32,073 nt of DNA from an uncultured Spirochaetaceae bacterium (GTDB taxonomy: Bacteria > Spirochaetota > Spirochaetia > Sphaerochaetales > Sphaerochaetaceae). The stretch spans positions 1 through 32,073 of the forward strand of contig CALXYN010000023.1 in NCBI GenBank assembly GCA_944392975.1. Reading direction: 5' to 3'. Below the pieces are notes generated by a model that saw nothing but the letters and a program-made list of their open reading frames with translations, was not told where the DNA came from and ran no database searches. This document shows, piece by piece, positions 15,619-19,480 of this stretch (its first letter is position 1; each line of letters begins with the position of its first letter). The position numbers and the translations under genes are program-made.

Positions 15619-15647
15619 ATTGTAACAGAATGGAGCATGCAGGTCGA
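15619..15647 (-). promoter_or_regulatory. Predicted leaderless promoter of hflK
   Basis: Minus-strand TCGACC (15642-15647) and TACAAT (15619-15624) are separated by 17 bp. Only 6 nt lie between the -10 and the ATG at 15612, so transcription should begin at or next to the start codon. There is no purine-rich SD in between. Confidence 0.6.
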
Positions 15648-15666
15648 GAAATTAACCGGGGGAGGG

Positions 15667-15696
15667 TTGCTGATGACACGTCCTCTGACGTATACT
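15667..15696 (+). promoter_or_regulatory. Predicted leaderless promoter of metG
   Basis: TTGCTG (15667-15672) and TATACT (15691-15696) are separated by 18 bp. Only 7 nt lie between the -10 and the ATG at 15704. No SD is present. Confidence 0.62.
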
Positions 15697-15703
15697 CGGT
15701 ACT

Positions 15704-17932
15704 ATGAAAAAAAGATTGATTACTTCGGCTTTGCCATATGTCAATAACATTCCGCACCTGGGAAATCTCATGCAGGTGCTTTCTGCGGATGTATTTGCAC
15801 GTTTCTGCCGGTCAAGAGGCTATGAAACGATGTATATCTGTGGAACGGATGAATATGGAACGGCAAGTGAGACAAGAGCTTTGCAGGAGGGTGTTACTCC
15901 ACGTGAACTCTGCGACCACTACCACGAAATTCATAAGAACATCTACAAATGGTTCAATATCTCATTTGATTATTTTGGACGTACAAGTACACCATTGCAG
16001 ACAGAGATAGTTCAGCACATCTTTTCGGAATGTGATAAAAATGGATACATTACAGAAAAGGAGACAGAACAGCTTTTCTGTCCTGATTGCAACCGCTTCC
16101 TTGCTGACAGATTTGTATCCGGAACATGTCCTCATTGCGGTTATGATGGTGCACGTGGTGACCAGTGTGAGAAATGTGGAACACTTCTGGATCCGACAGA
16201 ACTTGTAGATCCAAAATGCTCTGTCTGCGGGGCAACTCCAGTATTGAAGAAGACAAAGAATCTCTACATAAACCTGCCTAAGATTCTTCCGGTGTTCAAG
16301 GAGTGGATGGACAAGGCATCTATTGAAGGTTTCTGGGCAAAGAACGCAATTCAGATTACAGCCTCATGGCTTCGTGACGGATTGCAGGAACGCTGTATTA
16401 CACGCGATCTGAAGTGGGGTATTCCTGTCAACAAACCGGGTTATGAGGATAAAGTATTCTATGTCTGGTTTGATGCGCCTATAGGATATATCTCAATTAC
16501 TGCCAACAAGACTGAGAATTGGGAGTACTGGTGGCGGGATCCTGAAAATACAGAGCTTTATCAGTTCATAGGAAAGGATAATATTCCATTCCATACTGTT
16601 GTCTTCCCCTGTTCGCTTCTTGCCACAAAAGAGAAGTGGACAATGCTCTATCACATGTCTTCGACAGAGTATCTAAACTATGAGGGAGGCAAGTTCTCCA
16701 AGAGCAAGGGAATTGGAATTTTCGGCAACGATGTTGAGGAAACAGGAATTCCTGCAGATGTATGGCGCTTCTATATGTTCTACAACAGGCCTGAAAAGTC
16801 AGATTTCACATTCATGTGGTCAGATTTCCAGGATAAGGTGAATAAGGAACTTATTGGAAACCTTTCCAACCTCGTTAACCGCACACTTACTTTTGTGAAG
16901 AGATTCTACGACGGTCACATTGCTGAAGGAAATCTCGACAACAGTATTGTAGAAGCTGCAAAGGAAAAGGAAAAAATTATCACAGAGGCCCTTGAGAGAG
17001 CTGATGAGAGGGATGCTATCAGAGCTATCTTCGAACTTTCAGATATCGGAAACAAGGCATTCCAGGATGGAGAGCCATGGAAGATGAGAAAGGAGAATCC
17101 AGAGAGTGCAGAGATGCTTCTGAGAACACTTCTCTATCTCATTAGGGACCTTGCTGTGATGATCACACCTTATATGCCAGAAACCGGTGAGAGAATACTC
17201 TCATTCATCGGATCAGAAGGTGCTGACTGGAACACGGTTGGAAGCTTTGCAGGAAATATCGAAGTCAGAAATCCTGAGCTTCTTTTCCAGAAACTTGAGG
17301 ATGATCGTATTGCAGAACTCAGAGAGCGCTATTCTGGCTCGCAGCAAGAGCGTCTTGAAAGAGAAAAGACAGAAAAAGAAGGAAAGAAAATGGACGACAA
17401 CAATATTAAGAAAGAGGAAACTGTGAGTCTTTCAGATCAGTTTGCACGCAGGGTTATTCTGAAAGTTTCAAAGATTGTGAAGGTTGAGAAGCATCCAGGT
17501 GGAGATAAGCTTTATATTCTTACTCTTGACTGTGGCGAAGAGGAACCAAGGGTAATCGTATCTTCAATTGTTCCTTTCTACAGAGAGGATGAACTTCTTG
17601 GACGCAACATCGTACTTGTTTCCAATCTTAAACCGGCTAATTTCCGTGGTGTTAAGAGCCGTGGTATGCTTCTTGCTGCTTCTGATCCGACTGCAGAAGA
17701 CCTGCATTCAACATGTGAGCTTATCTTTGCTGATGATATCGAGCCGGGAACTGTTATAAAGGCTGAAGGTGAAGGCGAGGTTGAGAAGGTCACAACATAC
17801 ATAAAGCCTGATCATTTCTTCGCTCTTCCGATCAAGACAATCGATGGCTATGTGACTGTTGATGGCAAGAAACTCGGATATGATGGAAAATTTCTCCGTG
17901 TTTACAAATATGTCAATGGGAACGTTGGCTAG
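15704..17932 (+). CDS. metG: Methionyl-tRNA synthetase
   Basis: A 742-aa class I synthetase that charges tRNA-Met. The HIGH signature appears as PHLGN near residue 20 and KMSKS as KFSKS at 330-334. Four CxxC pairs between about residues 126 and 185 (CPDC, CPHC, CEKC, CSVC) form a two-zinc connective-peptide knuckle, as in the E. coli-type enzyme. The helical anticodon-binding domain ends with FQDGEPWKM. After a charged linker (about 545-575), a C-terminal EMAPII/Trbp111-like tRNA-binding OB domain follows (VEKHPGGDKLYILTLDCGEE, NLKPANFRGVKSRGMLLAASD), giving dimerisation and extra tRNA affinity. Its upstream region predicts a leaderless transcript. The CsoR-like gene follows after 9 bp. Confidence 0.96.
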   Translation: MKKRLITSALPYVNNIPHLGNLMQVLSADVFARFCRSRGYETMYICGTDEYGTASETRALQEGVTPRELCDHYHEIHKNIYKWFNISFDYFGRTSTPLQTEIVQHIFSECDKNGYITEKETEQLFCPDCNRFLADRFVSGTCPHCGYDGARGDQCEKCGTLLDPTELVDPKCSVCGATPVLKKTKNLYINLPKILPVFKEWMDKASIEGFWAKNAIQITASWLRDGLQERCITRDLKWGIPVNKPGYEDKVFYVWFDAPIGYISITANKTENWEYWWRDPENTELYQFIGKDNIPFHTVVFPCSLLATKEKWTMLYHMSSTEYLNYEGGKFSKSKGIGIFGNDVEETGIPADVWRFYMFYNRPEKSDFTFMWSDFQDKVNKELIGNLSNLVNRTLTFVKRFYDGHIAEGNLDNSIVEAAKEKEKIITEALERADERDAIRAIFELSDIGNKAFQDGEPWKMRKENPESAEMLLRTLLYLIRDLAVMITPYMPETGERILSFIGSEGADWNTVGSFAGNIEVRNPELLFQKLEDDRIAELRERYSGSQQERLEREKTEKEGKKMDDNNIKKEETVSLSDQFARRVILKVSKIVKVEKHPGGDKLYILTLDCGEEEPRVIVSSIVPFYREDELLGRNIVLVSNLKPANFRGVKSRGMLLAASDPTAEDLHSTCELIFADDIEPGTVIKAEGEGEVEKVTTYIKPDHFFALPIKTIDGYVTVDGKKLGYDGKFLRVYKYVNGNVG

Positions 17933-17941
17933 GAGGCGTCT

Positions 17942-18190
17942 ATGGCCCTAGATATCGATGCAGTACATGTCAGGCTAGCTAAGGCTCAGGGGCAGATTGC
18001 AGCTGTTGACCGGATGATATCATCCGGCGACAGCACTGAGCGTATTCTTGTTCAAATCAACGCTGCAAAATCCGCACTTCATAAAGTGGCTTTGCTGGTA
18101 GCAGAAGAAGCTGTTGCTGAGATGCTCGGTGATGAGGAAAAAGGCGAGGAGGCCAAAACCATTATCGAACGTTTTTCATCACTTCTTTGA
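17942..18190 (+). CDS. CsoR/RcnR-type (DUF156) small helical protein lacking metal ligands
   Basis: An 82-aa all-helical protein with the CsoR/RcnR layout: RLAKAQGQIAAVDRMISSG, then ILVQINAAKSALHKVALL. In this family these match the conserved RL.R.EGQv.gi.rMi and QI.A...AL segments. Canonical copper sensors use Cys-His-Cys. Here the aligned positions are T32, A57 and M61, and the protein has no cysteine at all; its only His residues are at 9 and 47. It may therefore be a ligand-free DNA-binding or structural homologue, or sense something else. The start follows AGGAGG. It is 9 bp after metG and converges on murD, overlapping its reconstructed 3' end by 12 bp. Confidence 0.75.
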   Translation: MALDIDAVHVRLAKAQGQIAAVDRMISSGDSTERILVQINAAKSALHKVALLVAEEAVAEMLGDEEKGEEAKTIIERFSSLL

Positions 18191-19480
18191 TAGCAGTTCT
18201 GTTACGGCACTGCGGAATGCAGAACCGCGTTCGAATTCATTTGTGAAATATTCGTTTGCATATGCACCCGGTGATAATAGTATTATCTCCGGGTTATCTC
18301 TTGCTCCTCTGTGATCAAGCGCTGTTTCATATGCCATTTCCACTGCCTCGTCCATTTTTTCATATGGTCAATTGAATATTAATCCTTCCCGATTGAGAAA
18401 TGGAAGGACTTTTTGTGAAAGACTTCCAAAGAGAATAGTAAGAGAAACAGCTTCATCCAAGGGCTGCATGAGCTGTGTAATATCCGTGTTGCTTTTATCC
18501 GTTCCACCTACAATCAGATGAACAGGTGTTCCTTTCATTCCCCGCATGGAAAATGCAACTGAAAGAGGAAGTACAGAAGAGGAATCGTTGATGAATGAGA
18601 TTCCTTTATTCACAGCAACAAGCTCAAGTCTGTTCGGTATGCCTTTGTACCCCCTGAACGCTTTTCCTATGTCTTTTTTCCTGAATCCCAGTGCCCTGAT
18701 GCATTCCCATGCAAGTTCTGTACCGGCTTTTGCACGGAAAGGATTTGTAAGAGATGGATAACCTTTTACTTTTGCTTTTGGAATGATTCCGGAAAAAAGC
18801 ATTTTCTCTCTTAGAAAACGGGGGATTATAAGTTTTCTTACCCATGGACCGATGAAAAGAGAACCTTCTGATGTCATGTCCAAGGGAGATGTCGGAATAG
18901 GAATCGTATCAGTTATTGCTGCTATATCGATACGTGGCCAGACATAACCAAGAGCCGAAGCTGTATCCTTTATCTGCCACATTGACATCTCGATGATTAC
19001 AGCATCATAGAGTTTGTCATCATTTTCGATTTCTGAAAGCAGATGAAATGCAGAGTACCCGAGGTTTTCTGAAAATGCAGCTTTCATGCCCAGTGAATTC
19101 AATGCATCGGCCAATGCGGAAGCAGTGCTTGTCTTTCCTTTTGAACCGGCAATGACAATACGGTGCATCCTCTCTGTCTTGGGATTTTCAAGGAGTGCTG
19201 CAATATCATTGGTGATATGCTTCGCCTTCTTTTTCACGAGGTAAGGAACCGGTACTCCTGGAACCTTGACAACAAGCTCTGCTTTCTCAACAGCATCCAT
19301 GAGCATATCTTTCGTGACGAAAACAGCTCCCTTCGATTCAAGAAGGTTGATTATCATCCTTTCATTCTCTCTGTTTTCAGAAGAACCGATGATTTCAACA
19401 CTGTGTCCAAGCTTGAGATAATATTCAGCTGCCTCTGCACCCCCGCCAGAGGACCCAAGGCCTAGGATAAGTACTCTCAC
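18179..19480 (-). pseudogene. murD: UDP-N-acetylmuramoyl-L-alanine--D-glutamate ligase with an in-frame TGA
   Basis: MurD adds D-Glu to UDP-MurNAc-L-Ala in cytoplasmic peptidoglycan synthesis. Reading from GTG at 19480, the Rossmann N-domain (VLILGLGSSGGGAEAAEYY), ATP-binding GSKGKTS (112-118), central-domain acids and the C-domain NDSSSVLPLS and VGGTDKSN are all present. Translation stops at TGA (18368-18370), codon 371. In the same frame 62 more codons continue (PYEKMDEAVEMAYETA..., then LLSPGAYANEYFTNEFERGSAF) to TGA at 18179-18181. They match the MurD C-terminus and restore the normal length of about 433 aa. The interrupted codon is probably an ancestral Gly (GGA). It may be a nonsense mutation, an assembly error or a readthrough site. 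TATACT lies 7 nt before the GTG, with no SD. Confidence 0.85.

Follow-up and report, generated by a model that had tools for sequence, protein, structure and literature searches.

The gene directly behind metG in the 32,073-nucleotide stretch of spirochaete DNA analysed here (the window) encodes a protein of the CsoR/RcnR superfamily (DUF156, PF02583), as confirmed by profile and predicted fold. We consider it probable, though well short of certain, that this protein is a repressor that has lost metal sensing and autoregulates the metG operon. This reading draws on the fold, the loss of the metal ligands, the retained DNA-contact residues, the linkage to metG within one clade, and a metG-promoter dyad seen in the readable genomes that carry the gene (carriers) and in none of the readable non-carriers; DNA binding, repression, the tetrameric state, and the lack of an effector are predicted from these sequence features. 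The features of the window that enter the argument are the following:

15654..15668, plus strand: putative type 1 operator, AACC-GGGGGAG-GGTT, the sole perfect copy of AACCGGGGNAGGGTT in the genome
15667..15672, plus strand: putative -35, TTGCTG, overlapping the operator and agreeing with the consensus only at TTG
15691..15696, plus strand: putative -10, TATACT, 7 nt before the metG ATG
15704..17932, plus strand: metG, methionyl-tRNA synthetase (MetRS), first gene of the proposed operon
17931..17936, plus strand: AGGAGG, which overlaps the metG stop (17930-17932) and is presumed to be the ribosome-binding site of the CsoR-like gene
17942..18190, plus strand: metG-linked CsoR/RcnR-fold protein without the X-Y-Z ligands, 82 aa, ATG start

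Family and distribution of the metG-linked protein

The 82-aa protein matched the Pfam family PF02583 with E = 2.4e-14 (53.9 bits vs. a cut-off of 22.8), and its AlphaFold2 monomer model, with a pLDDT of 95.2, consists of three helices. When this model was compared with the PDB by Foldseek, the top 17 matches were all CsoR, InrS, CstR, or FrmR chains, the best being InrS (TM 0.84-0.85), with TM values of 0.72-0.78 for the CsoR chains 2hh7, 4uig, 4adz, and 4m1p; the lowest E-value was 0.006 and none fell below 0.001. A sequence-only reading of this DNA had placed the protein in DUF156 and named a lack of fold similarity as its refutation; since the similarity is present in both the profile search and the predicted structure, the placement stands, and a chance resemblance to the CsoR family is ruled out on the same grounds. 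The protein scored below all of the NCBIfam equivalogs (RicR, 27.6 vs. 175 bits; FrmR, 19.8 vs. 133; RcnR, 20 vs. 138). The open reading frame begins 9 nt after metG, the neighbour that had also been described, and the identity of metG is backed by the NCBIfam methionine--tRNA ligase profile (792 bits vs. a cut-off of 587).

Among 48 genomes of the genus, 47 had a metG match and 44 had at least one PF02583 match. The conservation of the metG neighbourhood, which the sequence-only reading had proposed as a check, was evident in 26 of the 48 (the genome of the window included), where a CsoR-like gene lies directly behind metG and starts -1 to +12 nt from its stop, the start being taken as the first ATG from -5 to +24 nt that gives at least 70 aa (some orthologs have other upstream starts). 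All 26 proteins exceeded the curated PF02583 cut-off. The gene itself was thus upheld, but what had been presented as a single case is one of 26 metG-linked orthologs. For the 22 genomes without the gene, the region behind metG was examined in 20; G028 lacks a metG match, metG is cut in G005, and the carrier state of these two is uncertain. Candidatus Ornithospirochaeta stercoripullorum (Spirochaetota) shares the metG/CsoR-like arrangement; the genus name Ornithospirochaeta reportedly appears in a chicken-gut metagenome paper (PMC8035907). Four named loci, L028-L031 (the species just mentioned being L029), are probably from the same genomes as G023, G033, G008, and G061.

In the protein tree, which has few columns and only rough support values and from which one locus (L026) is absent, a branch with 95/83 support (present in 96% of bootstrap trees) set the 26 metG-linked proteins apart, and a Kiritimatiellae protein (L095, with C, H, and Q at the ligand positions) joined this clade on a long branch. 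The carriers also formed one side of a branch in the metG tree (SH-aLRT 99), with no non-carrier on that side, which fits one gain and no loss. As a separate observation, G063, G017, G011, G027, and G071 each had two or three metG-type matches, and five of these copies grouped far from the rest in the metG tree. The closest relatives outside the clade were Cys-His-Cys (C-H-C) proteins of gut bacteria, 39-47% identical (28 aligned); among 76 loci of such relatives, a CopA-like ATPase occurred within the DNA examined in 59 and metG in none, and 75 of the 76 had the C-H-C triad.

The possibility of a pseudogene is ruled out by the reading frame being open in all 26 carriers, together with low dN/dS in close pairs. 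Over the 62 of 325 ortholog pairs with dS below 1.5, the median dN/dS was 0.39 and the maximum 0.68. In the 12 pairs with the lowest dS, dN/dS was 0.05-0.26 for the seven within subclades and 0.57-0.68 for the five between subclades. The latter values would weigh against the autoregulator reading, and we tentatively take them as saturation.

A MurD-like gene (18179-19480, minus strand; murD model, 147 bits vs. a cut-off of 212) lies convergent to the CsoR-like gene. In the window it contains an in-frame TGA at 18368-18370 (minus strand), 62 codons before the end, which is either an assembly error or a real stop; in the 25 other carriers the frame continues to an NE[FY][ED]RG tail. At full length, the MurD-like gene and the CsoR-like gene share roughly a dozen bases at their ends. 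The identity to the window's copy was 60-84% in the 25 other carriers and 31-39% in the 10 non-carriers in which it was found, lower than for metG, and the MurD-like region may have been swapped along with the CsoR-like gene in a single block. In three non-carriers (G034, G003, and G024; loci L144, L145, and L139), an acidic open reading frame of ~130-140 aa occupies the same spot behind metG.

The former metal site and the DNA-contact residues

Alignment with the C-H-C relatives assigned T32, A57, and M61 to the ligand positions X, Y, and Z, the same residues that the sequence-only reading had given, and the absence of Cys from the protein, also noted there, was confirmed in the sequence. None of the 26 metG-linked orthologs has the C/H/C triad: position X is A in 17, T in 4, P in 4, and V in 1; position Y is A in 16, D in 5, S in 4, and Y in 1; and position Z is M, L, R, or K in 21 of the 26. 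Cys is lacking altogether in 24 orthologs. The other two, in G009 and G018, have one Cys each, aligning by eye at ~72 and ~59 rather than at X or Z, and metal sensing via a shifted Cys was rejected on this basis. The existence of 26 orthologs in one clade likewise rules out a lone mutant of a copper sensor. In the excerpted text of PMC5146963, the Cys at X is called "absolutely conserved" in the CsoR/RcnR family. Across 107 loci, which were drawn by similarity rather than as a sample of the whole family and contain some genes twice (e.g. L020/L181, both from one genome, and L022/L180), the triad was C-H-C in 102, C-H-Q in one (L095), and neither in four, and those four are metG-linked.

The residues R11, K14, G17, Q18, M25, L36, Q38, A41, A45, and R77 were identical in all 26 metG-linked orthologs, K43 was present in 24, and position 48 was K in 25 and R in one. 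The RLXR motif and the conserved Gln of the family are therefore represented by R11, K14, and Q38, with Lys replacing the fourth Arg (RLAK). According to the parts of PMC3902906 available, the R57A and Q81A substitutions in S. lividans CsoR made operator binding undetectable and R54A made it much weaker; judging from an alignment and the numbering, R54, R57, and Q81 would be R11, K14, and Q38 here. The DNA-binding residues given for E. coli FrmR in the excerpt of PMC5146963 are Arg14, Arg16, Gln41, Arg46, and Lys91, the first four of which, when shifted from Cys35, would fall at R11, A13, Q38, and K43.

The main rival to an inducer-free repressor is a metG repressor whose old ligand region responds to a new signal other than metal, one connected with methionine or tRNA charging, such as methionine, SAM, Met-AMP, uncharged tRNA, or MetRS itself. 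The linkage to metG and the promoter dyad described below fit this equally well, FrmR shows that the CsoR fold can take a non-metal signal (PMC5146963, in the part seen), and the orthologs of group A conserve polar residues near the old site (E33 in 16/16; R34, D30, and E55 each in 15/16). None of these four residues is kept across groups B-D, however, so that no clade-wide pocket is visible, and Glu76, whose spacing suggests a position close to that of the allosteric Glu81 in M. tuberculosis CsoR, is replaced by K or R in 10/10 of groups B-D. We regard a new effector as unlikely, and continue with the inducer-free repressor as the preferred reading.

The G-tract dyad of the metG promoter

This analysis adds an operator-like site upstream of metG, which was absent from the sequence-only reading. 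A G-tract dyad of the CsoR/RcnR operator type overlapped the metG promoter in 25/25 readable carriers and 0/17 readable non-carriers, counts that come from patterns written after inspecting the promoters (one alternative being the literal group D sequence) and from carriers that are one clade, so that the association amounts to a single gain followed by retention. Among the carriers, the metG promoter of G070 was unreadable owing to a contig end, and for G023 a second contig (L164) supplied the sequence. The dyad of the window, like that of most group A members, is AACC-GGGGNAG-GGTT and ends in the TTG of the putative -35, which is spaced 17 or 18 bp from a TATACT or TATAAT -10. In groups B-D, and in two members of group A (G064 and G033), the dyad is type 2-like, e.g. 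TGCCCTCGATGGGTA, and reaches from the spacer into the -10. By form, 14/16 of group A have type 1, 3/16 type 2-like, and 16/16 at least one of them, and 9/9 of groups B-D have the type 2-like form.

In shuffled promoters the dyad patterns occurred at rates of 0.0015 or less. The genome-wide counts of AACCGGGGNNGGGTTG, which we grade as a check less open to after-the-fact pattern choice, gave 10 exact matches across the 48 genomes, all 10 upstream of a carrier metG. The window's own genome holds one perfect match to AACCGGGGNAGGGTT and none with one mismatch, and the type 2 pattern TGCCNNNNATGGGTATA had eight exact matches, six at a carrier metG and two elsewhere in the non-carriers G063 and G001. 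The window's dyad has a 4 + 7 + 4 layout, the same as the RcnR site TACT-G6-N-AGTA, and in CsoR sites of type 2, TAC-X9-GTA encloses two shorter tracts (both as given in the excerpts of PMC3902906 and PMC5146963). In M. tuberculosis, the CsoR site overlaps the -10 and -35 (PMC10318464, in the portion seen).

A sigma-70 promoter scan did not call the metG promoter, whose putative -35 is weak, and returned only a divergent minus-strand site; this, and the difference in dyad form between subclades, count against the preferred reading. The putative -10 only 7 nt before the metG ATG implies a leaderless mRNA in the window. The -10 was located 6-8 nt 5' of the metG ATG in 24/24 carriers examined, and metG is thus probably leaderless among them. 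The distance in non-carriers was 10 nt in four and at least 23 nt in 11 of the other 13, and TATAnT was not seen before metG in two non-carriers within the stretch examined.

In the regulation that we favour, a tetramer translated from the metG transcript would bind the metG-promoter dyad, covering either the -35 (in the window and most of its near relatives) or the stretch from the spacer to the -10 (in the other carriers); occupancy would block RNA polymerase and so cap the synthesis of both MetRS and the repressor. From either position, binding should prevent transcription. Because the repressor gene follows metG, with its presumed ribosome-binding site on the metG stop, the repressor would be made in step with MetRS, resulting in negative autoregulation of both. 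With the metal site gone and no replacement conserved clade-wide, the simplest form of this circuit is one without a small-molecule inducer, in which the output would be set by the level, dilution, or turnover of the protein. The sequence-only reading had left three options, namely the sensing of another ligand, constitutive DNA binding, or a repurposed tetramer. Constitutive DNA binding appears to fit best, given the DNA-contact residues kept in 26/26 orthologs and the dyad in 25/25 readable carrier promoters, and the presence of that dyad at metG speaks against a repurposed tetramer that does not bind DNA.

A different view is that DNA binding has been lost and that the protein, being co-transcribed with metG, associates with MetRS in a structural or tRNA-binding role. 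The spacing of -1 to +12 nt from metG in all 26 carriers is compatible with such a partner, and a basic helical tetramer could conceivably bind tRNA. This account is nonetheless very improbable in our estimate: it leaves unexplained both the dyad in every readable carrier promoter and the invariance here of the residues that contact the operator in CsoR.

The dyad might also be read by another regulator, either the canonical CsoR of the same cell or another G-tract reader, with the metG-linked protein as a passenger. Beside the metG-linked gene, 23 of the 26 carriers have a second PF02583 gene, which could supply such a reader; in the window's genome it encodes a Cys-His-Cys protein and follows the gene for a P-type ATPase of the copper type that has CopZ-like domains (TIGR01511, 586 bits vs. 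a cut-off of 397). G-tract dyads also occur at other promoters, including those of the non-carriers G001 and G014. However, 14 of the 17 non-carriers with a read metG promoter have a PF02583 gene and lack the metG dyad, whereas three carriers in which no second PF02583 gene was found (G006, G035, and G066; 87, 89, and 78% complete) keep it. In addition, the nine readable copA promoters (read by eye; three of twelve loci gave no usable copA start) carry a different C/G-tract dyad, e.g. ACACCCCACGGGGGTGGGGTGT, with variants in G018, G032, and G010, and this would be the expected site of the canonical CsoR. Considering also the low dN/dS of the metG-linked gene in close pairs, we judge a passenger role to be distinctly improbable, and retain the autoregulating repressor as the preferred reading.

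The interpretation of the dyad as part of a divergent hflK promoter alone was rejected, since seven carriers (L109, L117, L121, L127, L128, L129, and L131) keep the dyad with no hflK found upstream, the stretch searched being ~1.5 kb in six of them and 0.3 kb in L128. The window itself contains a divergent promoter-like site for hflK at 15619-15647 (minus strand; TCGACC-17-TACAAT), with shuffles giving 0.5 such sites. It lies ~7 nt from the operator, and hflK might therefore also be affected in the window.

Lipoprotein promoters and comparison with known systems

The view of metG as the only operator of this kind in each genome was dropped, because G-tract dyads (WAC-Y-G8-10-GTA) also occur in lipoprotein promoters. 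We fetched 18 of the 20 places of the form AACC-G9-TAG, which had emerged as one-mismatch matches in the search of the 48 genomes, and all 18 were promoters, with an ATG 47-54 nt from the start of the site and a lipoprotein-like protein N-terminus, hydrophobic with a Cys (the lipobox being read by eye); TTGACA lies 6 bp upstream of the site in most of them. The window's own genome has nine places of the form TTGACA-N10-G8, one of them with a mismatch, and seven exact lipoprotein-promoter dyads. Eight of these nine places have a G-tract of 8, 9, or 10 and the ninth has one of 7; seven have TACC or TACT as their left arm, and eight are followed by a lipoprotein-like open reading frame within the DNA examined. 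The corresponding features are:

G000:C17:21573, C22:24251, C31:16077, C76:6584, C80:3080, C86:1235, and others (L222-L230): lipoprotein-like genes in the window's genome with a poly-G tract (7-10 G) located between TTGACA and the presumed -10, in most cases with TAC as left arm

Exact matches to TTGACANNNNNNWACYGGGGGG numbered 128, of which 123 were in 25 of the 26 carriers (G012 being the exception) and five in two of the 22 other genomes (G001 and G014); its reversed control had no exact match across the genomes searched. With a looser G-tract pattern, at least one match was present in 26/26 carriers and in 8/22 others among the matches listed (overlaps counted), the eight including G028, whose carrier state is uncertain.

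The form TACC-G9-TA can be read as TAC-X9-GTA, the CsoR consensus, although its GTA side may simply belong to the -10. Poly-G promoters of changing length are known in Treponema pallidum, and the lipoprotein promoters found here are candidates for phase-variable promoters, for targets of the metG-linked protein, or for both at once. The target set may exceed metG, or another G-tract reader may exist, and these dyads lowered our confidence in the metG autoregulator slightly. A broader scheme, in which an effector-free CsoR-family tetramer autoregulates metG and also sits on the lipoprotein TAC-C-G(8-10)-GTA dyads, with the tract length switching genes through both operator and promoter spacing, is possible, but we hold it to be doubtful.

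If the preferred reading of a metG autoregulator is true, this clade represses without the Cys at X that all known family members use, which would be a natural case of DNA binding uncoupled from sensing, and metG would be a tRNA synthetase gene with its own dedicated repressor of metal-sensor fold. We found no link between the CsoR family and metG or any aminoacyl-tRNA synthetase in the literature searched, which covered few subscription papers. By our own rating, the absence of the inducer site of known members and the target are new, and the fold and operator type are known. Such a protein would offer a natural always-on CsoR for studying the allostery of the family, and would make a protein reader for spirochaete poly-G promoters a testable question.

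Compared with CsoR of M. tuberculosis, S. lividans, and G. thermodenitrificans, the metG-linked protein shares the fold, an RLxR-like motif (RLAK), the conserved Gln, and a G-tract dyad in the promoter, but lacks the Cys-His-Cys site and the copper efflux neighbour, and its probable target is metG. RcnR, the Ni/Co sensor of E. coli, resembles it in the operator, where the 4-7-4 site TACT-G6-N-AGTA compares with AACC-GGGGNAG-GGTT; the arms of the two differ, the metG site in the window is single rather than tandem, and the protein has no Cys at X and no His at Y or Z. InrS, the Ni sensor of Synechocystis and the best structural match of the predicted model, binds Ni through His21, Cys53, His78, and Cys82 (PMC7055735, in the part available), and its X-Y-Z equivalents are absent here. 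The signature shared by RcnR and InrS (Cys at X, His at Y, His or Cys at Z, and an N-terminal His) is thus not found in the 82-aa protein. FrmR (formaldehyde) and CstR (sulfur species) are family members that likewise left metal sensing. Both rely on the Cys at X, according to the excerpt of PMC5146963, whereas this Cys is missing in all 26 metG-linked proteins; residue 2 is Ala in place of the Pro2 that accompanies Cys35 in the FrmR signature, and, with no Cys at all, the protein also lacks the CstR signature of Cys at X and Z. The closest sequence relatives found outside the clade, C-H-C proteins of gut bacteria encoded next to P-type ATPases (e.g. L060 and L034), differ in their context, with a CopA-like ATPase in most of the 76 loci and metG in none, and in a triad that is intact in all but one.
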